A program made the translations under genes and the position numbers. 64,000 bases of DNA from a virus. The stretch is from IMG/VR virus record IMGVR_UViG_3300025098_000019, positions 46,011 through 110,010 of that record. One strand, 5' to 3'. Shown here piece after piece: positions 45,859 through 62,166 of the stretch; the first letter of the stretch is position 1; each line of letters starts with the position of its first letter. The notes beneath the pieces were generated by a model that ran no database searches, was not told the origin of the DNA, and saw nothing but the letters and a program-made list of their open reading frames with translations.

Positions 45859-46191
45859 ATGGCAACACTATTTAAAAATAAAGTATTAACGCAGGTAGGA
45901 ACAACTCCTGTACAAATTGCGCAGACTGCAAGCAATTCTAGAGCAACAGTAATTGGGCTCAGTCTTACAAATTTATTAGCAGACAAAGCTGTGTTAGTTA
46001 GCGTAATGTTAACAGATGAAACAACCACAACAGGGTATTATCTAAAAGATGTAATGATACCACCAGGCGGAAGTTTACGGGCAGTTAATGGAGGCGAAAA
46101 ATTAATTGTAGCTTCTAGTAATGAATTAATGGTAGTATCAAGCGTTGACGACAGCGTAGATGTTTTAATGAGCTTTGTTGAGATTGTATAA
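45859..46191 (+). CDS. Small strand-rich virion protein, unknown
   Basis: 110 residues, beta-rich (RATVIGLSLTNLL, KAVLVSVMLTDETT, DVMIPPGGSLRAVNGGEKLIV). It starts four bases after the giant fibre stop (AGGATAAAAAAATGG), so it is probably co-translated with it. It resembles fibre accessory proteins that cap or decorate fibres, and shares general character with the protein at 30500. No enzyme motif is seen. Confidence 0.6.
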   Translation: MATLFKNKVLTQVGTTPVQIAQTASNSRATVIGLSLTNLLADKAVLVSVMLTDETTTTGYYLKDVMIPPGGSLRAVNGGEKLIVASSNELMVVSSVDDSVDVLMSFVEIV

Positions 46192-48081: not shown

Positions 48082-51000
48082 ATGGCTAGTAAACTAAAAC
48101 ACATTAGAAGTAGTGTACCGGGAAGAGTACCTACAGACTCACAGATCGAAACAGGTCAAATTGCAATTAACACTGCTGATGGTAAAATTTTTACCAAAAA
48201 GGAAAACGGTGAAATTGTTGCGCTACAGGCGGTTGATCCAGATTTTGCATCGTCAAGTATTTTCCAAGGCGATACTTTATTAAAAGTATTAGACGCTCAG
48301 GATAGTACTAAAGCAAGTATTACTGCAAGTGTAGACGGCGTATCCAAAGTTGTTATTGAAGCAGACGGTACCGAATTTAACGGACCAATTACTGTTAATG
48401 CAGCAGAAACATTATTCTTTAATGATGCTGATGACAACAAATACGTAGGTATACAAGCACCTGATGATGTTAACTTTAGCTATATTATTAAACTTCCACC
48501 AGAAGATTCAATTGACCCTGCTGTACTAACAACAGACGGACAGGGAAATACATTTTGGGGTAGACCAGATGCGTTTGGCGGAAACAGAGTTTATGTTTCA
48601 GACAAATATGGTAATGACGAAAACGACGGTACTAGCCAACCAGTTAAGTCAATTACGCGAGCAACACAAATTGCAGCAGATTTATCATATCGTCCAAAAG
48701 TAGATCCGGGTAGAGAATTCTTTAACGCTAAGAAATTATTGCGTGACAACAAGCCATATATTAAAGAAGAAGCAATTGCGTTTATTGAAGCAAACTTTGT
48801 TAACTTTTTTCCAGAGTTTGATCAAACAGACTTTGGCAATGACGTAGTTAAATTAGTTGATGCTGTAACAGAAGATATTGTATTTGCAACAAATTATAAA
48901 TCAACAGTACTAGCATTAGAATTAGCTGAAAAGCAAAAAGCATTTGCAACAGACGGCCAAAAAGCAAAATACATTGATTTTGTAGAATATGTTCTTACTA
49001 GACTAGAACTTATTGCGCCACTTGATGCAGCAACACTTCCTGCTATTAGAACACTATGGGCATCTATTGTTGAAATTATATGGACTGATCTTGACGATGC
49101 TCAAGCAATGAGCGAAATATACTTTACTCCAAATCCAACTGCAATAACAACACTTACAAATGGTGTTGATCTTCTAAGAAGAAACAAAGAGTTTATTGCC
49201 GAAGAACAAATTGCTTGGATCGAAGCAGAAATACTTGCTGGTAATTCACCTTTTAACAACGGCTTAACATATTCACAAGAAGTATGGAAAGACTTTTATA
49301 ATGACTTAATTGATGCAATAGCATATGATTTACAGTATAGTGGTAATACTGCTACAATAGCACAGACTGATTGGCTAGCATCTGGTGATGATAATATTAC
49401 AGGTGTTGAAGCACAATATAGAGAAGCAATTACACATTTAGTAACTTATATTGATGATGTAATCGAAAGCAACACAATATCAGTACCAGCGCAATCGACA
49501 GTAGCACAGGTTACTGACGCAGCAAATGGTAGTAGTGTTGAATCAGCAGCAGCTATTTCATTGTTAACACAATTAAATGAAAGAACATATCAAGATCCTG
49601 GTAATTACCCTGTTATAATAACTAATCCAGCATACGTTGCTGCTTTTAACTTTGATCCTGGTAATACTGACAGAGGTACAATCCAAGACGAAACAGCAGC
49701 AGTTAGACAAAACTCAATTATCTACTTAGATCAAAAGTATCCTGGTGCATATAAAGAAGCAAAATGTCGTAGAGACACTGGGCTTATTGTAGATGCAGCA
49801 TATTGGGATATTTTATTAGGTACTAATTATAATCAAGTTACAGCTGGATTATCGTATACTAGAGGTACAAGTGCGTACTTAGGAAATTATCAAAATATTC
49901 AAACTGTAGAAAGTTTAAAACATGCTAAAACGTTAGCAACAGTGCTTACAGGTTCTGATGCAGTTGCACAATTCCGTAATGACGAAGCATGGGACGAAGT
50001 TGTATACATTATTGAAAACGGTGTTACTGAAGACGGGTCAACAAGACCTATGCAGTATCCATCACCAGTTGGCGTTTCAGAGTTTAAAGTTGAAGCCAAA
50101 GATGTACTACAAGACAAAAGAATACTTATTCAAAATAGAGCAATTAGTTGGTTAACACTTAACTACCCTGCACTTGTGTATGATGCTGCAAAATGTCGTA
50201 GAGACGTAGGTTATGTAATTGACGCATTATGCTACGATACAACATATGGCGGTAACAGTGCTACACATTATAATGCTTCTATGTATTATGAAAATGCTGT
50301 TAACCAATTACCACCAGAACAAAGAGTAATTACATCAGCACTATACGCAGAATTAAAAAATTGGGTTGAAGGTGCAATTTCAGGTACTGACTTTACTGAA
50401 GCAATTGATGAAGAAGGTAACCCTGTTATAGTTGATCCAACAGGCACAACAGCACCAACTGGTACACCAACTGAGGACGATACCGGCGGCACTGGTACAG
50501 GAACCGGCGGCGGTACACCTACGGCAGCTCCACCAACAGGCGGACCAACTGGTACAGAGCCAACTGGTGAACCACCAGAAGAATTAGATCCATTACTAAT
50601 TGTAGAAATTCAAAATATACAAGCATTAATTGATGTTATCATTGGTGTAATTGATCAAGGACTTACTCAACTACCAAATAAAATTAATCCTGACATAGCA
50701 TGGGTATCGGGTTCTGTTACAACAGCAGCAACAAACTTATTAAACGGTGTTTCTGGAATCCAGCAGTCAGTTATTGAATATATTGAAAATAACTTTACTG
50801 GATATGTTTATGACCCAGCCGACTTTACTGCTAAATTAGGTGCATTTATCGATGCAGCAGAACTAGACGTTGGATTAAGTACAAACTATAATTCTGTTAC
50901 AGCAGGTAGAGCATATAATATTGTTGAAGCACCAAATGTATTCATTGACCAATTACGTGAGTTTTTACTTACTATAACAGATCTTAAAGCAAGAGCATTA

Positions 51001-54000
51001 CTAGTTAGTAATGTAGCTGATTTTCCAAATGCAACAACATCTGTTACTAATTCGTTTGATGAAATTATTAATATTATTACAAACGGTAACAGTTCTGCAA
51101 ATGCACTAACATTTACTTCACCAACTGGTGCTACTGACACTGAATATGCTAAAGATCATTTACAACTTAATAGAGAATTTTTACAAGACGAAATTATTGC
51201 GTGGATAGATGTTAACTACGGTAGTTTAAGATATGTTCCTCGTATAACTAAAGAAAGAGTTGGATTTGTTGTTGATGCACTAAGCTATGACATATTATAC
51301 GGCGGAAATAGTGCTACGAGATTTGCAGCAGCGGCGTACTTCTTTGGTTCAACCGGACTTGGTGGCGCAGAAGCTAATGCAACAGCAGCAGCATATAATA
51401 GATTACAAACTGTTGTAGCACAAGTAGTTAGAGGTATTACAGTATCTAAATCGACTGGTAATACTCAAGTACAGGATACATCAAGTCAAAATGCCGACGA
51501 AGCAACAGCAATTCTAGTACAAAACTTAGTACAGATTGTTGAAGATACAATTACTAATGGCGACTTGTCAGCATTGCCAGCTACAATTACACCGTCTACA
51601 GCTTGGAACGTATCAGATCTTATAGATGCAGCAACAGGACTTAACAATTCACAATCAGCAATGATTACAGAATCAATATTCTACTTAAACACTATCACGT
51701 TTGATTATAATAGAGATACATGTAAGCGTGATATTGGATTGATTGTTGACGCAGTAGCTTATGATATTGTATTAGGCGGAAATCAAAAGTCTGTCGAAGG
51801 CGGACTAAGTTACTTGGCAATTGCTAAAGTAATGAAGCAACAGTTATTCCAAACATTGAAATCAATTCAATTTACTAGAGACTTATGTGTAGACGGTATT
51901 TTAACTAATACAGCATATACGCCAACGTATACTAATGTTGCACCATTCCAAAAATTATATACTAACCTTGAGACTCAATCAGCAGTTGCAACTGTTAGAG
52001 AACGATTTGACGAATTATTATTAGTATTAACTAGACCAGCAAAAACTGCTCCTGAGCTTGTTGGTGTAAGTACTAAACTTAATACTTACAATGCATTACA
52101 AAATGCTAAATCTGTAATACAAACAGCAACAACACGTTTTATTAAAGGTACATTTAGCGGATTTATTTACAATGTTGCAACGTGTGAACGTGATATTGGT
52201 TTAATTATTGATGCAGTATGTTATGACTTAATTACAGGTTCGTACTTTGCTTCAGCTGTAGCAGGTAGATCGTATGCACGTGGCACAGCAAGTGTTGTAA
52301 ATGCAAGCCAAAAAGAAGAAACAGTAGCAGCATTTGGATACGCTAAAGGATTATCACTAGAGTATGCTGATAGTATTGAACAAGCTGAAATAGCACTTCT
52401 TTGGGATATTGTTATTGATCTTATCAGTACAGGTGTTACTGACAAAGGTAATATTTGGAACAACTTTACATATAATTCTGTTAAGTGTGCAAGAGATACT
52501 GAATATCTTGTAGATGCAGTACGTCTTGATGCTATCTTTAACAGTAATTATAGATCAGTTGCAAGTGCAAAACGTTATCTAAGTGGCACAGCAAGTGTTG
52601 TAACGACTAGTCAAAAGCCTCAAACTGCTGCGGCGTTCGGCGAAGCTAAGGTATTAACAGCAGCAATTCTTAGTGATGCTACGTTAATCTCACGCTCAAA
52701 TGCGCTGTGGGACGAAATTATTGATATAGTTCAAAATGGCGAAGACGCAGTAGATGCATATGTTAGACCAATTCCAACAGGCGGCTCAGGAAACGCAAGT
52801 GATTCCGGTTACGCAAATGCAGCAGCACAATTAATTGCTAACAAAACATTTATGCAAAAAGAAGTTAGTGCATGGATTGCTGGTCAAATAGGTGCATCGC
52901 AACCTCCGTTTACATCAGACTTTGTATATGATACAGAGAAGTGTGAAAGAGACATAGGATTGCTTGTTGACGCACTTGTTTATGATATCACATACGGCGG
53001 TAACTTACAAACTTATGACGCAGCAAATGCTTACTATAAAGATGGTGTAGCGCAATACGGCACAGATGAAAAAGAAGAAACTATTGCTGCATACAATCGA
53101 TTAAAAACTATTGCAGAACAAGTTATTATTGAAACAGCAGTTGTTGTATCAGCAGGAAACCAAGAAACGCAAGATACATCAGGTACAGCAGGTAGTGCAG
53201 CAGCAGGAAACCAAGCTGAAGCATTAGTTCAACAACTTATGGATACACTGACTAATGACGGCACGTTGCCAGTTAGATCAGAGCCTGATATTAGTTGGAC
53301 AAGTGGTACATTCCAAACACAATATGCTTCACTTGGAACAGCAGGTCAGGAAAGTATATCTGCAGACGTTATTACTTGGATTGATAACAACATTGCAAAC
53401 GCATTCCCAACTAACAACTACACACCAGCAGATGCTGCAACATCAGTATCTACTTTCCAAACTAACAAAGCAACTTATATAAGTTCAGTAACTAGTTGGA
53501 TCTCAACAAACTATCCTGATTTAACTTATGATAGTGCAACGTGTGAAAGAGATACAGGATTCTTAATTGATGCAATAAGTCATGATCTTATGTATAACGG
53601 TAACGTACAGTCGTACATTGCAGCTGATGCATATTATAGCTTTGGTGTATTACAATTAGGCAGTGTTGCTGAAAAAGAAGCTACAGTAGCAGCATATACA
53701 TATTTAAGAAACTTAATGATTGCAGATTCAACTGGGGTTGACACAGGCACAAGAATTACAGCATTATTTACTGATGTGTTTGTAATTATTAATGAAGGTG
53801 ATATACCAGATATTGTTGAAGCAAGATTTGATATTATTCCAATTACTGTTGCAGTATCAGCAGGTGACTTCTATGTTAACAACCCAATTATTGTTCCAGA
53901 CTTTGTTACTATTGTTGGTGATTCAATTCGTTCAGTTGTTATTAGACCACTCAATGCTGGTAAGGATATGTTCCGTACACGTAATGGTACATATATCTTT

Positions 54001-57000
54001 GGTGTAACATTTAAAGATGCACTAGACGAAAACAATATTCCAACATATACGTTTGATTTTGCATTAGCATTTGATGACCCGGCTGATACGTCAGTTGATA
54101 GAACTGAATATTTTGGTATTGGTAATACTAAACCAATTATTACAACTTCACCATATATTCAGAACTGTTCAATCATATCGTTCTTAGGTGCAAACGGTGC
54201 AAAAGTTGATGGTAGTAAAATTACTACTCCAAACATTCCAAAAATACTTGAAGAAGTTGAAACACCAGTTAGCTTCGGAGACGGCATACCAGAACAAGGT
54301 AAGTCAATGGTTTCGAACGCATTTACTACACTATCGTTTGGTGGTACAGGTTGGTTAGTAATTAACGATGCTTATGCACAGATTGTTAGTTGTTTCCAAA
54401 TCTTCATGCTTAACGGTAGTTACTGTCAGTCAGGTGGTTACTTATCAATTACTAACTCAGCTTCAAACTTTGGTTTGTATGCATTACGTGCAAGTGGTTA
54501 TTCGCAAAACGCATTCTTGTTTGATAGAGGAACAATTGTTGCAAGTGGCTTTGACGGCGGCAATACATTTACAAGTATTGGTACAGGTCGTTCACCAATT
54601 GAACAATTTGTTATTAGAATTAGAGATAAGGACGATAACACTGATATTACAGCAGATTACAAACAAGCAACTACTGAAGTATCATTTGATGCTGCAACTA
54701 GCATAGATGCTGCAACTAACATTATTACTATTGTAGATCACGGATTTACAAATAATCAAGCAGTATATTATAATAGCCTTGCTAATGATGATATTCCGGG
54801 ATTATTAGACCAAGGACAGTATTATGTAAATATTATTGATACAAATACATTTAGATTGTTTAATGATAACTCGTTAACATTTGCAACTGAAGTTTCTCCA
54901 GGCACTGGAACACATTCATTTACATTAAATGCAGAAGAATTTACTGTTCAAGGCATATTAAATGAGCATAACAACTATCAAACACTTGTTCTAACAGACG
55001 GACAAAATTTATCAATTAGTAGCTTTACTACAGGTGATGCACTATTAGGTACTACTGGTAGTTTTGAAAATACTGCATTTGTACTTGATTGGGATCACTT
55101 AACAAGAACACTTGTTGTATCTAATGAAGGTACTAACGTTGGTGCAGATGAACCAATTACAGTACGTTTTGAAGACACGTCAACAATTACACAAGTTGCA
55201 GGAGCACTTATTTCTCCAGCATACACAATTGAATCAGCTGTAGCAAGAACTGATTACTGGACAGCAACATTTACTGTTGACTCAACAGTACCTGACAACA
55301 GTATACAAAATCCAAGTCAGGCAGTAAGTAACAAGATTAGTTTCCACAGACCTTCAATTGTTAACAGTTCATCACATACTTGGGAATATTCAGGTTCAGG
55401 TGTTGACTATAACGCACTACCACAAAACGGCGGTAAGAGCCAAGGTACAGATTTTGAGCAATATTCAGAACTACCAGGACGAGTTTACGCTTCGGGTACT
55501 AACGAACTTGGTGACTTTAAAGTTGGTTCGTTTATTGTTGCTGAAAACAAGTCAGGTGAAATTGCGTTTAATGCAAGAGTTACAGTTGGCGAACTTGCTG
55601 TATTACGTTTGAGCTTATCAGATGTTAATATTGAGGAGTTCTCCACAGACGTAGGCTTGGGTGATAATGAAATTGGCGGCGCAAAAGATACTCGTGTATC
55701 AACTCAGCTTGCTATACGTAGCTTTGTTGCTAATAGACTTGGTAACGTACTAGATAAGAACGTTAGTTCTAACGCAGTACCGGGTGCTGTTGTACAGTTA
55801 AACTCAGCAGGACAGATCAACGCAGACTTGTTACCGCCAGCACGTGGTATTACAACATACAATGTTGATGAGTGGGAAGGTAGATTAAGACTTTCAGAAC
55901 GTGTTCCACCAGTTGAAGTAATTGCAGGTGATAACGCAAGTGAAACGTATGATCAAGCAATTATTGTAGTATCCAACAACATAACAGCTAACAAGGGTGA
56001 CGAAATTACCCAGGTTGGTAATGCTGGAGCATTTGGTTATAACCAAAATACAATTATTAATAATACAGTTATAACATTAGCAGACGTTACTGGTACATTT
56101 AACACTACAGGCGAGCTTGAAGTTAATGGTGTTGCGCAGTCAGGCATTATTCCAACTACTGTTAACGCAACAGAAGAAATTGTTGACAACTACTTTATGA
56201 AGAGTGACACTATTAGTCAGTACTTAGTACTTGAAGGTGGCGTCACATATGACTTTACTGGCATTACTGAAGTAATTGGTGCTAACGCAGGCGCACAAGG
56301 TGATATTACAGCAGGACCAACATATGGTAACATTGCATCACTTAACTATGCAACATTTACAGCAGGTACTGGATATACTCCAGGTACTGGAACAGCAACA
56401 TACAAAGACATTCCATTAACAGGCGGCACAGGCACAGGTGCAGTTGGTGATGTTATTGTTACTGGCGGCACAGTTGAAAGTGTTCAGCTAAAAGTAAGTG
56501 GAACAGGCTATACAGCAGGTGACACACTAAGTGCAGCATCGTCAGCTATTGGTGGTACTGGTTCAGGCTTTAGTATTAACATTGCTACAGTACAAACTAG
56601 ATTGTTTATTGATCTATCAGGCGGCTTTACTAAGTTTAGTGCTAATGAAGGTTCACCAGATTACATACAAGATGCTAATGCAACTGTTAAAACTATTGCA
56701 GATGTAACAGCAACTACAAATGTTATTGTTAACGGTGCTGATATTGGCGCAGGCGGTGATATTGATTACTTAAACAGTGAATTTGAAGTTTCAGGACACG
56801 GTCTTGTAAGTGGTGAAGCTGTTAAGTATAACAGAAACGGTAACCCAGTAATAGGTAACTTAATTGATGGCGAAACATACTTTGTTAAAGTAATAGATAT
56901 AGATACATTTGAACTTTACGCAAACTATGCATTTACATCGGGCTCACAGATACTATTAGGTGGTTCAACATCAGGTAACCATGTATTTGCACATGATGTA

Positions 57001-58773
57001 ATATCAGTTGATAACGATATTTTCAATATTCCATCACACACATTTATTACAGGTGATATTGTAAGATTAAGTGCTAGTGATGCACCAGCTGGGTTATTAG
57101 ACCAAACAACTTACTTTGTTGGTAGTGTAACAACTAATACATTTACGTTACATGAGCAAGGCGGTGATGCATTAGCAAGTACAAACGGTGTATCTCTAAA
57201 TGCAGTTGATTTAACTGACACTGGTACAGGTTCACTTACACTTACACTACAAAACGTTGCTATTGTTGGAACAGTAAACACAAGTTCAACAACACTTAAC
57301 AACTGGGGCATACTTGCTTCAAGTAGCTTCGATGCAAGTGCTATTGTTAGTGGTGTTATTGATCCTTCTAGACTTGCTCCAGAAGGAAGTGCATCAGATC
57401 AATCATTCTTAAGATTACTGAATGGTAATAGTGCTTGGGTACTTGCTGTACAAAATATTAGAGCAACAGCAGACAGTCCAATATCAGTAACTGGTGACTT
57501 CTTTACAGATCCAGATGACGGACTTAACAAGTTCTATTCAGAACTAGCATTAGATGTTTCAAGAGCTGATGATGCAGGTGGCGATACTAACTATACTAAC
57601 TTAGGTGTTGTAGGAACTAATAAACTACAGTTTACTACATCCAATGGACAAGTTAGCATTAAGAGTGGTATTGTAGATGCAGGATTCTTAGGCGGACAAG
57701 CGGGTAACTATTATACTAACCCAGCTAACTTGTCAAGCAGTGTACCAACTAATAAAGGTGGTACAGGACTAGCAAGTTTCACAGCAGGTGACTTGATTTA
57801 CTCAGGTGCAACTGATAGTTTAACTAACTTATCAATTGGTCCTAATAACTCAGTATTGTTTAGTGACGGAGCTGTTCCACAGTGGACAACATCACCAACA
57901 TTTGGTGGTGCGTTAACAATTGGCGGTATTGCTGCTGTTAACAGTACATCAGCAGCTACAAGCGCAACAACAGGTGCGCTACGTGTTGCAGGCGGTGTAG
58001 GTATTGGCGGAGACGTTTATCACACTGGTACGCTTAACACCGAAACACTAAATGTTATTAACCCAGATCCAAGTAATAATGTTGCTCTAGCTGTTAGATC
58101 TAGCTTACAATTCCAAGCAGTTGATGGCATTCAGCAAATTACTGCTAGAATGGATCAACCAGCAGGTGGTTTACGATTTGACGGTGCAGCTGGACAGTTG
58201 TTTACAATTACAGATACACTAGTTGGTACTGTGTTCTCAGTAAACAATGATACTAAAACATTATTAGAAGGTAATGACGTTAACGAACTTATTGCAGTTC
58301 CTTCAAGTAACAGTTATTTACTAGTTGGTCAAACATCAAACGATGGTGTTAGCAGACTACAAGTTACAGGACAGTCGGTATTTAATGGTAATGTAAATAT
58401 TACTGGCACAATGACTGCTGCTTCTAAGAGCTTCCTTATTACACATCCAGCTAAGCCAGGATATAAATTACAATACGGTTCACTTGAATCACCATATCAT
58501 GGTGTAAGATTAACTGGCGAAGGAGTTGTAAAGAATGGTACAGCAACTATTGAGCTACCTGACTATATCCATGCACTATGCCGCGAAGAAGGAGTTAATG
58601 TACAATTAACTAATATCAAACACGGACAGGTATTATGGGTAGAATCAGTTGATATTGCTAATAACCAAGTTGAAGTTAAAACTGAAAATACTGATGGTAA
58701 CTTTAAGTTTTACTGGAGCTTCACAGCAGTCAGAAAAGATGTTCCGCCACTAGCAACGGAGTATAAGTACTAA
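48082..58773 (+). CDS. Giant virion protein (3563 residues) with C-x-R-D repeat domains and beta-helix
   Basis: The N-terminal 150 residues are fibre-base like (GRVPTDSQIETGQIAINTADG is common in phage fibres). Residues about 180-1920 hold some 11 helical repeats with core C-[RKE]-R-D-x-G-x-[IL]-[IV]-DA-x-x-YD-[IL]-x-x-G-x-N, at nucleotides near 49771, 50191, 51721, 52183, 52487, 52943 and 53541, plus variants without the Cys near 48800, 49280, 50812 and 51247. A Thr/Gly/Pro linker lies near residue 790-840. Residues about 1930-2300 form a pectate-lyase-like beta-helix (NPIIVPDFVTIVGD). The C-terminus (FLITHPAKPGYKLQYGSLESP) matches the HP-x-KPGY end domain of marine phage fibres. Likely a receptor-binding fibre or whisker; the repeat domain is unassigned. 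Confidence 0.75.
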   Translation: MASKLKHIRSSVPGRVPTDSQIETGQIAINTADGKIFTKKENGEIVALQAVDPDFASSSIFQGDTLLKVLDAQDSTKASITASVDGVSKVVIEADGTEFNGPITVNAAETLFFNDADDNKYVGIQAPDDVNFSYIIKLPPEDSIDPAVLTTDGQGNTFWGRPDAFGGNRVYVSDKYGNDENDGTSQPVKSITRATQIAADLSYRPKVDPGREFFNAKKLLRDNKPYIKEEAIAFIEANFVNFFPEFDQTDFGNDVVKLVDAVTEDIVFATNYKSTVLALELAEKQKAFATDGQKAKYIDFVEYVLTRLELIAPLDAATLPAIRTLWASIVEIIWTDLDDAQAMSEIYFTPNPTAITTLTNGVDLLRRNKEFIAEEQIAWIEAEILAGNSPFNNGLTYSQEVWKDFYNDLIDAIAYDLQYSGNTATIAQTDWLASGDDNITGVEAQYREAITHLVTYIDDVIESNTISVPAQSTVAQVTDAANGSSVESAAAISLLTQLNERTYQDPGNYPVIITNPAYVAAFNFDPGNTDRGTIQDETAAVRQNSIIYLDQKYPGAYKEAKCRRDTGLIVDAAYWDILLGTNYNQVTAGLSYTRGTSAYLGNYQNIQTVESLKHAKTLATVLTGSDAVAQFRNDEAWDEVVYIIENGVTEDGSTRPMQYPSPVGVSEFKVEAKDVLQDKRILIQNRAISWLTLNYPALVYDAAKCRRDVGYVIDALCYDTTYGGNSATHYNASMYYENAVNQLPPEQRVITSALYAELKNWVEGAISGTDFTEAIDEEGNPVIVDPTGTTAPTGTPTEDDTGGTGTGTGGGTPTAAPPTGGPTGTEPTGEPPEELDPLLIVEIQNIQALIDVIIGVIDQGLTQLPNKINPDIAWVSGSVTTAATNLLNGVSGIQQSVIEYIENNFTGYVYDPADFTAKLGAFIDAAELDVGLSTNYNSVTAGRAYNIVEAPNVFIDQLREFLLTITDLKARALLVSNVADFPNATTSVTNSFDEIINIITNGNSSANALTFTSPTGATDTEYAKDHLQLNREFLQDEIIAWIDVNYGSLRYVPRITKERVGFVVDALSYDILYGGNSATRFAAAAYFFGSTGLGGAEANATAAAYNRLQTVVAQVVRGITVSKSTGNTQVQDTSSQNADEATAILVQNLVQIVEDTITNGDLSALPATITPSTAWNVSDLIDAATGLNNSQSAMITESIFYLNTITFDYNRDTCKRDIGLIVDAVAYDIVLGGNQKSVEGGLSYLAIAKVMKQQLFQTLKSIQFTRDLCVDGILTNTAYTPTYTNVAPFQKLYTNLETQSAVATVRERFDELLLVLTRPAKTAPELVGVSTKLNTYNALQNAKSVIQTATTRFIKGTFSGFIYNVATCERDIGLIIDAVCYDLITGSYFASAVAGRSYARGTASVVNASQKEETVAAFGYAKGLSLEYADSIEQAEIALLWDIVIDLISTGVTDKGNIWNNFTYNSVKCARDTEYLVDAVRLDAIFNSNYRSVASAKRYLSGTASVVTTSQKPQTAAAFGEAKVLTAAILSDATLISRSNALWDEIIDIVQNGEDAVDAYVRPIPTGGSGNASDSGYANAAAQLIANKTFMQKEVSAWIAGQIGASQPPFTSDFVYDTEKCERDIGLLVDALVYDITYGGNLQTYDAANAYYKDGVAQYGTDEKEETIAAYNRLKTIAEQVIIETAVVVSAGNQETQDTSGTAGSAAAGNQAEALVQQLMDTLTNDGTLPVRSEPDISWTSGTFQTQYASLGTAGQESISADVITWIDNNIANAFPTNNYTPADAATSVSTFQTNKATYISSVTSWISTNYPDLTYDSATCERDTGFLIDAISHDLMYNGNVQSYIAADAYYSFGVLQLGSVAEKEATVAAYTYLRNLMIADSTGVDTGTRITALFTDVFVIINEGDIPDIVEARFDIIPITVAVSAGDFYVNNPIIVPDFVTIVGDSIRSVVIRPLNAGKDMFRTRNGTYIFGVTFKDALDENNIPTYTFDFALAFDDPADTSVDRTEYFGIGNTKPIITTSPYIQNCSIISFLGANGAKVDGSKITTPNIPKILEEVETPVSFGDGIPEQGKSMVSNAFTTLSFGGTGWLVINDAYAQIVSCFQIFMLNGSYCQSGGYLSITNSASNFGLYALRASGYSQNAFLFDRGTIVASGFDGGNTFTSIGTGRSPIEQFVIRIRDKDDNTDITADYKQATTEVSFDAATSIDAATNIITIVDHGFTNNQAVYYNSLANDDIPGLLDQGQYYVNIIDTNTFRLFNDNSLTFATEVSPGTGTHSFTLNAEEFTVQGILNEHNNYQTLVLTDGQNLSISSFTTGDALLGTTGSFENTAFVLDWDHLTRTLVVSNEGTNVGADEPITVRFEDTSTITQVAGALISPAYTIESAVARTDYWTATFTVDSTVPDNSIQNPSQAVSNKISFHRPSIVNSSSHTWEYSGSGVDYNALPQNGGKSQGTDFEQYSELPGRVYASGTNELGDFKVGSFIVAENKSGEIAFNARVTVGELAVLRLSLSDVNIEEFSTDVGLGDNEIGGAKDTRVSTQLAIRSFVANRLGNVLDKNVSSNAVPGAVVQLNSAGQINADLLPPARGITTYNVDEWEGRLRLSERVPPVEVIAGDNASETYDQAIIVVSNNITANKGDEITQVGNAGAFGYNQNTIINNTVITLADVTGTFNTTGELEVNGVAQSGIIPTTVNATEEIVDNYFMKSDTISQYLVLEGGVTYDFTGITEVIGANAGAQGDITAGPTYGNIASLNYATFTAGTGYTPGTGTATYKDIPLTGGTGTGAVGDVIVTGGTVESVQLKVSGTGYTAGDTLSAASSAIGGTGSGFSINIATVQTRLFIDLSGGFTKFSANEGSPDYIQDANATVKTIADVTATTNVIVNGADIGAGGDIDYLNSEFEVSGHGLVSGEAVKYNRNGNPVIGNLIDGETYFVKVIDIDTFELYANYAFTSGSQILLGGSTSGNHVFAHDVISVDNDIFNIPSHTFITGDIVRLSASDAPAGLLDQTTYFVGSVTTNTFTLHEQGGDALASTNGVSLNAVDLTDTGTGSLTLTLQNVAIVGTVNTSSTTLNNWGILASSSFDASAIVSGVIDPSRLAPEGSASDQSFLRLLNGNSAWVLAVQNIRATADSPISVTGDFFTDPDDGLNKFYSELALDVSRADDAGGDTNYTNLGVVGTNKLQFTTSNGQVSIKSGIVDAGFLGGQAGNYYTNPANLSSSVPTNKGGTGLASFTAGDLIYSGATDSLTNLSIGPNNSVLFSDGAVPQWTTSPTFGGALTIGGIAAVNSTSAATSATTGALRVAGGVGIGGDVYHTGTLNTETLNVINPDPSNNVALAVRSSLQFQAVDGIQQITARMDQPAGGLRFDGAAGQLFTITDTLVGTVFSVNNDTKTLLEGNDVNELIAVPSSNSYLLVGQTSNDGVSRLQVTGQSVFNGNVNITGTMTAASKSFLITHPAKPGYKLQYGSLESPYHGVRLTGEGVVKNGTATIELPDYIHALCREEGVNVQLTNIKHGQVLWVESVDIANNQVEVKTENTDGNFKFYWSFTAVRKDVPPLATEYKY

Positions 58774-58812: not shown

Positions 58813-61632
58813 ATGGGCGTACATTACGGACCAAGACCCACAGGCAATTTGCCACCGATAACAGTGCCGCCGACGGCAGATCCAGCTTCAGGTAATACAA
58901 AACCAGTAAACCCGTCTAGTTGGACAAGAGAAAGCGACTGGCTAGCAATGCCAAACGTAGTTGAAACTGACCAAGTATTTTATGGGTTAGTTGCAATTCA
59001 CGATGTGCCGCACAACTTTTTGACATTTAGAGCGCAAGGTGCTTATACAATTGACTGGGGTGACGGAACACCTACTGAAAATTATACAAGTAATTCAACA
59101 GCACGACATGATTATGATTGGGACAATGTTTCATCTGCTACATTAACTAGTAGAGGATATAGACAGTGTATGGTCACTGTAACACCGCAAGGTGGAAACA
59201 ACCTTACAGCTATTAACCTAAATGATAAACATAACCAAGCAGGTTTAACAAACTATACATCAACCGGTTGGTTAGATATTAAATTTGCTATGAACAATGT
59301 AGGTACGTTTTACTTGTATAACTCAGCATGGCGTCATTCTGTATTAGAAAGACTTCACTGGGTTGCATCGTCATCTAGTCAAACAAGTGGTAACCAATTA
59401 TTTAGACACTGTTGGGCTATGCGCTCAATACCAAACTTACCATTTGCTTCATTAACAGATTGCTTTTTTATGTTTGGACATTGTGATAATTTAGGTGACG
59501 ACGGATATCCAACATTACCTAGTACAGCAACATCAAACAATTTCCACTATATGTTCTATTTGAACAGACAGTTGCAAACTGCTCCTGTATTAGATACTGG
59601 TAATGCTACAAATATGAGTTATATGTTTCGACTTTGTTGTCGAGTAAAGTATATACCTTCGCTTAATTTCCAAAATAATTTATATTCACAATACCAATTC
59701 CAAAACTGTTTTAACTTAGAATTATTTAGTGATACGTCATGGGACTTTGACAAAGTTACACGTTGCGAATATATGTTCTCAGGGTGTTATGCTATGAGAT
59801 ACTTACCAGCAATGGATACTAGTTCTGTAACACGTATGGACGGTATGTTCTTGTCACTAAGGTCGTTGACAGAAATGCCAGAAGTTGATCTAAGTGCATG
59901 TACTAATGCTTATCGATTAATGGAATCATGTACTAAAGTTAAGTATACACGATTTGTTGGTTCAAACTCGAATATTACACGAATGGATAGAATGTTCCTT
60001 GCATGTTATAGACTGGAATATTTACCATCTCTTGATACTTCGAGGATTGAAAGAGCTGATAACATGTTTAACGGTTGTATTAACCTTAAACGTTTAACTC
60101 AAGATACGTTTGATCTAAGTGCATGTACACGTATTAATGGTATGTTTGCAGGTATGAATCAGTTGAGAGTTGCGCCTGTATTACTTAATTCTAGTTTAGT
60201 TGTTGACCTTGATAACTTGTTTACAAGTTGTTATTACTTAACAGAAATTGGTTATATTGATACACAAAGTGTTACTGACTTTTATCGTATGTTTATTAAC
60301 TGTTACTCACTAACAGGCCTTGATTGGGAATTAGACTGTAGAAGTGCTACGCGACTACGTGGTATTTTCCACAGTTGTATTTCATTGCGTAAATCACCAG
60401 CATTACGTAACATTAACTTAGTTAATGAAGCTACAGAATTCCGTGATTTATACTATAATTGTAATTCGCTGCAAGAATTTACAAACATAGAATTAGATAC
60501 GTCGAATGCTACTACTTTTTATTATATGTTCTATAACTGTTTGAGTTTAGCAACAATTCCGTTTAACATTGATACAAGTAAGTGTATTGACATGCGTGGA
60601 ATGTTTAGATACTGTCGTGTGTTAGAATCGTTTAATCAAACTAATGATTCATTTGATACTACATGGCTTCGTAACTATGATGCAATGTTTTGGGATTGTC
60701 ATAATTTACAAGAAGTTCCGGATATTGAAATAAACAATATTAATACTGATATTGATGGAAATGCAGTTACTCAAAACTTAAACCTAGACTATATTTTCTA
60801 TGGTTGTTACAATCTTCGAGAAATTCCAACTAACTTCTTTAACAAAACTTATTTAGATGCAGGTGGCACTCCAAAGAGCTTTGACGGTTATAGATTGTTT
60901 AGTAACTGTTTTACAATTAATACATTACCCAATATGAGCTTTGGACAAATTAATAGATTTTATCAATTCTTAATTAGTTGTCGTAATATTGAATATCTAC
61001 CAACAATGGATACTTCAAATGGCGGCGACATGAGATACGCTTTTGCATACATGTATGCTCTTAGAGAAATGCCAGCTGGTGTTGATTTATCAAGTTGTAC
61101 TACTGCATATGCATTTGCTATTAACCCAAGAGCAATGACGTATCTTCCGGACTTAAATGGACCTGGTGCAAGTTGTACTGACTTCCGTTACATGTTCTAT
61201 GGCAGTGAGACTCTTACGAATGTAGATGCTACATTTGATACTAGCAGCGCAACAAATGTTGCACGTATGTGGGGTTATTGTAGAGCACTTAAAAAATTAC
61301 CAGGAACTTATGATTTTAATAATGTTACTACTGAGTCAACTAGTGCAGCAGCAGGTGTAAATCAATTTATTATAGACTGTAGTTCTCTACAAGAAATTAA
61401 TGTTATTAATTTACGTAGACAGATGGATTTCAAAAATGCAAGTTTTGATAGAGATCAAATTGTAAATATGTTTAATAACTTAGTTGACAATAGTAGCCCT
61501 GAGTTAAAGCCAGACGGTACAACACGGGCTACAGCATATACATTGTTTATAGGTGGTAACTTCGGATTGCAAACATTAACTCAAACTGATAGAGATATAG
61601 CTCTTAATAAAAATTGGATTCTAAACGGATAA
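58813..61632 (+). CDS. BspA-type leucine-rich-repeat surface protein with PKD-like front
   Basis: 939 residues. The N-terminus is Pro-rich, then a PKD-like strand segment with YTIDWGDGTPTENY (about 90-103). From about 190 to 880 there are some 25 repeats of the BspA/DUF285 kind: MF-x-x-C-x-x-L-x-x-[LI]-P-x-[LM]-D-[TS]-S-x-x-T-x-M-x-x-MF. These LRR-like repeats are known from surface adhesins of bacteria, protists and some large phages. Many cysteines are present, one in nearly every repeat. The ending (ATAYTLFIGGNFGLQTLTQTDRD) is typical of the family. A strong AAGGAGA site precedes the start. Probably an adhesin at a fibre tip, since it follows the giant fibre genes; receptor unknown. Confidence 0.75.
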   Translation: MGVHYGPRPTGNLPPITVPPTADPASGNTKPVNPSSWTRESDWLAMPNVVETDQVFYGLVAIHDVPHNFLTFRAQGAYTIDWGDGTPTENYTSNSTARHDYDWDNVSSATLTSRGYRQCMVTVTPQGGNNLTAINLNDKHNQAGLTNYTSTGWLDIKFAMNNVGTFYLYNSAWRHSVLERLHWVASSSSQTSGNQLFRHCWAMRSIPNLPFASLTDCFFMFGHCDNLGDDGYPTLPSTATSNNFHYMFYLNRQLQTAPVLDTGNATNMSYMFRLCCRVKYIPSLNFQNNLYSQYQFQNCFNLELFSDTSWDFDKVTRCEYMFSGCYAMRYLPAMDTSSVTRMDGMFLSLRSLTEMPEVDLSACTNAYRLMESCTKVKYTRFVGSNSNITRMDRMFLACYRLEYLPSLDTSRIERADNMFNGCINLKRLTQDTFDLSACTRINGMFAGMNQLRVAPVLLNSSLVVDLDNLFTSCYYLTEIGYIDTQSVTDFYRMFINCYSLTGLDWELDCRSATRLRGIFHSCISLRKSPALRNINLVNEATEFRDLYYNCNSLQEFTNIELDTSNATTFYYMFYNCLSLATIPFNIDTSKCIDMRGMFRYCRVLESFNQTNDSFDTTWLRNYDAMFWDCHNLQEVPDIEINNINTDIDGNAVTQNLNLDYIFYGCYNLREIPTNFFNKTYLDAGGTPKSFDGYRLFSNCFTINTLPNMSFGQINRFYQFLISCRNIEYLPTMDTSNGGDMRYAFAYMYALREMPAGVDLSSCTTAYAFAINPRAMTYLPDLNGPGASCTDFRYMFYGSETLTNVDATFDTSSATNVARMWGYCRALKKLPGTYDFNNVTTESTSAAAGVNQFIIDCSSLQEINVINLRRQMDFKNASFDRDQIVNMFNNLVDNSSPELKPDGTTRATAYTLFIGGNFGLQTLTQTDRDIALNKNWILNG

Positions 61633-61641
61633 GGTAACATA

Positions 61642-62136
61642 ATGACAGAAATTACAGAAATAACGCAAGACAACACACAGTCGGGATTTTATTGCATGAT
61701 TGACGGAGCCTTAGGGTTTGCTCCAAATTTTGTTCAATGGCCCGATGGCACAACTATTCAGCGTTCAGAGAAAGACACTTATAGCTATCCTGTTAATGGA
61801 TATAGTTGGTTTGACTCACGAGCAGCAGCAAAAAGATTTTTTAATTATATTGAAGAGCCGCAAGGTGATGCTACATTAAGAGATACAGAAGACATGCAGT
61901 TTGGAACGTCTTCAAATTCATTTATTGTTGGACCTATTCCGCCCGACAACGATCCGGACGATGACGATCAAGGCATACTAGAAAAACCAGATCCTTATGT
62001 TGAAGACGGACCTTTGCCAAATCCTATTGGAATAGTATATGACATTGATATGCCTCCTGCACATGCAGAAGATGCTCACTTAGCTGATCCGTATGAATTT
62101 GATCCTACATTGGAAATGGATGTTCCGCATCAATAA
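61642..62136 (+). CDS. Acidic protein of the fibre cluster, unknown
   Basis: 164 residues. The first half looks folded (SGFYCMIDGALGFAPNFVQW, then GYSWFDSRAAAKRFFNYIEE); the second half is acidic, Pro/Asp-rich and likely unstructured (PPDNDPDDDDQGILEKPDP). It follows the LRR protein by nine bases in the same transcription unit and ends at the bidirectional terminator. A fibre chaperone or connector is possible; no family is recognised. Confidence 0.55.
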   Translation: MTEITEITQDNTQSGFYCMIDGALGFAPNFVQWPDGTTIQRSEKDTYSYPVNGYSWFDSRAAAKRFFNYIEEPQGDATLRDTEDMQFGTSSNSFIVGPIPPDNDPDDDDQGILEKPDPYVEDGPLPNPIGIVYDIDMPPAHAEDAHLADPYEFDPTLEMDVPHQ

Positions 62137-62142
62137 TAAAAC

Positions 62143-62166
62143 AAAAGGACCGTAATGGTCCTTTTT
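62143..62166. terminator. Bidirectional terminator between convergent genes
   Basis: AAAAGGACC-GTAAT-GGTCCTTTTT: nine pairs, A run on one side and T run on the other. It would stop both the fibre transcript and the minus-strand Nudix/gene 15 transcript; the Nudix stop codon abuts it. Confidence 0.9.

Follow-up and report, generated by a model that had tools for sequence, protein, structure and literature searches.

A DUF285/BspA-type leucine-rich repeat protein of a phage fibre unit carries a front module that recurs with such repeats in other phages

BspA proteins are mostly cell-surface proteins, and leucine-rich repeat (LRR) arrays of the BspA/DUF285 class are generally adhesive. DUF285-type repeats have also been encountered in several uncharacterised phage proteins. 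They are present, together with a WGDG motif, in the "putative tail protein" gp93 of Synechococcus phage S-CBWM1, in a 353-aa protein of S-SKS1 and in gp103 of PAU, and they lie within the "tail protein I" gene of the annotated Klebsiella phage ST16-OXA48phi5.4 (identities for these phages, 22-29%). Their settings differ from that described here, since the S-SKS1 protein is placed among head genes and the Klebsiella repeats are fused to a baseplate protein. For Vibrio phage pir03, such repeats have been annotated only (PMC7765460).

Two further systems are related by their repeats. In the algal virus AaV, the DUF285 proteins AaV_052 and AaV_382 were found in purified particles (PMC7507832). 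AaV shares the possession of DUF285 proteins with the phage studied here, but it is a eukaryotic giant virus with an unrelated particle. PARCEL coding repeats are 25 aa long, are recognised by DUF285 models, have spread horizontally and are common in marine metagenomes (PMC2996958). Their palindromes are absent from the LRR DNA of our locus, which holds only four long-range imperfect inverted pairs. PARCEL membership was rejected on this lack of local palindromes, as judged with a repeat finder (the authors' method was MEME). In the open-licence literature on BspA/DUF285/LRR and phage tails, we found annotations only and no description of the combination of a WGDG-bearing front module with DUF285 repeats (hereafter, the cassette).

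A 939-residue repeat protein in a phage fibre unit

The window, a stretch of 64,000 nucleotides, makes up the final 64 kb of a virus record 110 kb long. The phage carries T4-like genes (portal, protease, major capsid and baseplate). Capsid protein identity was 70% with Vibrio phage 2.275.O and 67-70% with several phages whose genomes span 280-470 kb. Given this likeness, the record probably covers only part of the jumbo-type genome of a marine phage. The features of the locus are listed in Table 1. The LRR gene starts with ATG, with a Shine-Dalgarno-like AAGGAG approximately 9 bases 5' of it.

Table 1. Positions of the LRR gene, its domains and its neighbours in the window
Feature	Positions	Strand	Description
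Fibre-like gene	48082-58773	+	3563 aa; directly upstream of the LRR gene, 39-base gap
LRR gene	58813-61632	+	939 aa; leader, front module, DUF285/BspA-type LRR array, C-terminal cap
Leader	58813-58920	+	Residues 1-36; Pro-rich; no obvious hydrophobic signal sequence (sequence reading)
Front module	58921-59340	+	Residues 37-176; phage module, WTRxSDWLAMP...YTIDWGDG; all-beta, modelled at pLDDT 89
LRR array	59365-61416	+	Residues 185-868; ~26 repeats of the form DTSxVTxMxxMFxxCxSLxxxP
C-terminal cap	61417-61629	+	Residues 869-939; ends DRDIALNKNWILNG
164-aa gene	61642-62136	+	Downstream of the LRR gene
Hairpin	62143-62165		Terminator-like; separates converging units

The Pfam model DUF285 (PF03382) matched the protein in seven stretches (E=8.8e-37; 125.9 bits against a cut-off of 25), whereas the LRR_5 match was weak and under its cut-off. 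We placed 26 repeats by hand; most spacings were 24-28 aa, and three were longer (33-36). Twenty of the 26 repeats have a Cys in the same register, and the whole protein contains 30 Cys. Thus, the BspA/DUF285-type repeats and the Cys in nearly every repeat, both proposed in an earlier sequence-only reading, were confirmed. A family profile matched the BspA-type LRR structures 4fs7, 4gt6 and 6mlx (E=2e-24 to 9e-8). A model of the full protein was of low confidence (pLDDT 58.6), too weak for spatial mapping of residues, and a fold search with it returned LRR proteins as the best, though weak, PDB matches (E ~0.02).

In its repeat consensus, Cys register, DUF285 match and profile matches, the protein resembles the BspA-like/DUF285 and LRR_5/TpLRR proteins. 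It differs from BspA-like/DUF285 proteins in its phage-specific front module, in its location in a phage fibre unit and in the lack of a visible signal sequence or cell anchor; read by eye, the N-terminus contains no hydrophobic stretch. By its sequence, the protein is of the DUF285/BspA LRR type and falls outside the secreted surface class. The leader is a possible virion anchor or linker. Comparable Pro-rich leaders precede the same front in two other cassette proteins (L192 and L196).

The front had been described as PKD-like. The WGDG motif is indeed present, but no Pfam PKD match was obtained with this front or with any of 57 relatives, and a PDB comparison by sequence and by fold gave no confident match. 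Since neither a PKD model nor a good PDB match was found, the front is best called a phage-specific module of its own. Its 140 residues were modelled confidently and are mostly beta.

The LRR gene lies in the fibre unit, although not at its very end as had been thought: it is next to last and is followed by the 164-aa gene and the hairpin. Beyond the hairpin, converging Nudix and sheath-stabilizer-like genes are located. In each of the four close relatives, the 164-aa gene adjoins the LRR gene; a search of the phage record collection found nothing related to it. Its product is Asp- and Pro-rich in its C-terminal half and is 63% identical to that of the relative L003, diverging faster than its neighbours.

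A second DUF285 protein, of 1330 aa, is encoded by the same phage outside the window (G000:C1:16345-20337, minus strand, corresponding to L184:3346-7338, minus strand). Its DUF285 repeats (E=2e-34) are accompanied by a glycine-rich domain (Gly_rich_2); it is without the WGDG front, and its gene clusters with tail-collar fibre and fibre-like genes.

Recurrence of the front module with DUF285 repeats

When viral contigs were searched with the front alone, at least 600 pattern matches and at least 266 confirmed relatives were obtained. The family form is WxRPxDWLxLP...YTVDWGDG. WGDG was present without exception in an alignment of 57 fronts, of which at least 90% shared R, W, P, YTV and further residues. 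The query contained no repeats; among the matches listed, 53 of 56 non-redundant complete front-bearing proteins had DUF285 repeats. An equivalent of the terminal motif, IATxKGWTVTG, was found no more than 6 aa from the C-terminus in 41 of the 56 cassette proteins. In the phage record collection, two front queries gave no match at 1e-5, although the WGDG motif is present in the S-CBWM1, S-SKS1 and PAU proteins.

The genes around the cassettes point to virion anchors. In 51 of 55 instances, the gene upstream shared the strand of the cassette (median gap, 0), and matches to tail-fibre PHROG families recurred among such neighbours. Single labels are weak, because names of multi-domain fibre PHROGs can spread via shared repeats. 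In one contig (L131:3289-5976), the cassette is fused to a P22-type head-closure protein Hc3 (N-terminal 350 residues, E=4e-65), which would put the LRR solenoid at the head-tail neck. The N-termini of two further proteins (L134 and L140) contain repeats matching baseplate-wedge, fibre and virion proteins, and another (L110) ends in a laminin-G-like (lectin) domain that also matches baseplate-wedge profiles.

A protein of 105-121 aa (YKVLGQ...TTLYTVP...) precedes the cassette in many phages (for example, L097:5594-5920) and in some cases matched tail-fibre PHROGs. A link between it and the 110-aa gene at 45859 of the window was dropped (E=0.03).

In approximately 85,000 bacterial and archaeal genomes (257 billion bases), only 14 front-module loci were confirmed, several of which adjoin phage tail or head genes. 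In Zoogloea (L188), genes for tail-collar proteins and for a central tail fibre J protein (E=8e-169) directly precede the cassette, and a major head protein is encoded near the cyanobacterial cassette (L192). In Flavobacterium supellecticarium (L187:7836-14542), three cassette genes (454, 551 and 479 aa) share a 7-kb stretch close to an amidase/endolysin-like gene; this is probably a prophage or tailocin-like region.

These fusions and neighbourhoods, together with the local gene context, bear out the placement of a BspA-type LRR protein in a fibre module. From its position and its relatives, we infer that the LRR gene is a virion gene. Encoded in a fibre module and linked through its relatives to virion anchors, the product would count among tail-fibre or receptor-binding proteins. 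Secretion or expression by the host as a cargo protein separate from the virion would fit the mostly cell-surface location of BspA proteins, yet it is very improbable given the N-terminus without a hydrophobic signal sequence, the place of the gene within the fibre unit and the fusion of relatives to head-closure and baseplate-like proteins.

Substitution patterns among close relatives

An orthologue of the LRR gene was present in four viral contigs, three of them at full length (that in L005 is partial), and a second scan for orthologues gave no sequences beyond these. Identity to the window protein was 94% for L002 and 83-84% for L003, L004 and L005. The gene order matched that of the window in all close relatives that extend far enough. 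Among relatives with a stabilizer identity of at most 66%, other genes occupy the slot and no LRR match was obtained there. The gene is therefore dispensable in the wider group, and its presence at this slot is a feature of a small clade. In one 66% relative (L016:9852-17241), the slot holds fibre-like genes, approximately five putative 2OG-oxygenase-like genes and a methyltransferase-like gene, all named by sequence reading only.

The sequence-only reading had cast the repeats as a fast-evolving host-recognition tip. In the comparison of the window with L003 (~84% identity), dN/dS was 0.125 for the LRR gene, 0.128 for the stabilizer-like neighbour and 0.177 for the fibre gene (C-terminal 2600 codons), which speaks against fast evolution at this distance. 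Changes were spread unevenly over the repeat positions (none of 5000 permutations was as extreme). Position -11 was changed in 58% of repeats, whereas positions -8, -6, -5, -2, -1, +1 and +2, which vary among repeats, were changed between orthologues in only 8 of 182 cells. The Fisher p of 4e-10 for these seven nearly frozen positions is post hoc, because they were chosen after the per-position table had been viewed; the permutation test over all positions is not. Such strong LRR conservation argues against an arms-race tip. The pattern is suggestive only, coming from one deep comparison, of a specific surface that may be retained, together with a few free or shifting sites.

Nearly frozen, exposed-looking positions are also what a fixed protein-protein interface predicts. 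The protein could be a structural or decorative component that packs on the giant fibre or the baseplate, or loosely on the extracellular matrix, with no part in host choice. Purifying selection equal to that on the neighbours and the slot without LRR in distant relatives of the neighbouring gene agree with this role. However, LRR arrays of this kind usually serve adhesion, one close pair shows an excess of amino-acid changes (see below), and the attachment of the cassette to many unrelated anchors is easier to reconcile with a tip than with a fixed interface. We consider a purely structural role rather unlikely.

In recent pairs, the LRR gene was the more variable, with dN of 0.031 and 0.021, compared to 0.0175 and 0.005 for the fibre gene. 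Between L003 and L004, the closest pair, the ratio of nonsynonymous to synonymous changes was 45:35 in the LRR gene and 32:86 in the fibre gene (p=5e-5); between the window and L002, the difference from the fibre was not significant (p=0.15). Six residues were variable in both close pairs, compared to 1.8 expected. At residues 272 (F/Y), 474 (Y/F) and 721 (I/Q), the same two alleles occur in both lineage pairs, suggesting allele exchange or repeated change.

Fast evolution, as proposed in the sequence-only reading, is partly supported, by the closest pair and by position -11. As a special case of a virion adhesin, the protein may be a rapidly diversifying host-recognition tip, with change confined to few sites and alleles exchanged between lineages. 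The excess in the closest pair and the shared variable residues, some with the same alleles, favour such a tip, but no excess is seen at larger distance, the second pair does not differ significantly from the fibre, the full sequences number only four, and no reverse transcriptase (RVT_1) was found in the 110-kb record, which may be a fragment. A diversity-generating retroelement was rejected for lack of this enzyme in the record. Overall, rapid diversification of this kind appears doubtful, at perhaps one chance in four.

Proposed role of the protein and of the cassette

The 939-residue protein is quite likely a virion-attached adhesin, an adhesion solenoid built from a portable phage cassette. 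The short leader would tether the protein to the tail fibre or baseplate, and the WGDG front module would start or cap the solenoid. As suggested by the fold class and the gene's place, the 26 repeats could then offer a long face contacting a molecule on the host surface, with the conserved C-terminal cap closing the solenoid at its end. Since the front marks the cassette in the tail-fibre regions of many unrelated phages, the whole is probably a detachable, host-gripping "hand".

What is new here is the phage-specific front and the wide recurrence of the cassette on virion anchors. A broader reading, to which we give somewhat less than even chances, is that the front and the DUF285 solenoid constitute a phage-wide, hitherto unrecognised cassette for adhesion, one moving among unrelated fibre, baseplate and neck anchors across many tailed-phage lineages. 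If so, phages would have, in addition to beta-helix fibres and to tips of the jelly-roll or lectin kind, another common scaffold for receptor binding. If the solenoid binds receptors, many phage proteins whose present label is "unknown" or "surface protein" would gain a testable role, and the LRR scaffold, a recognition device elsewhere in nature, would also serve host binding by phages.
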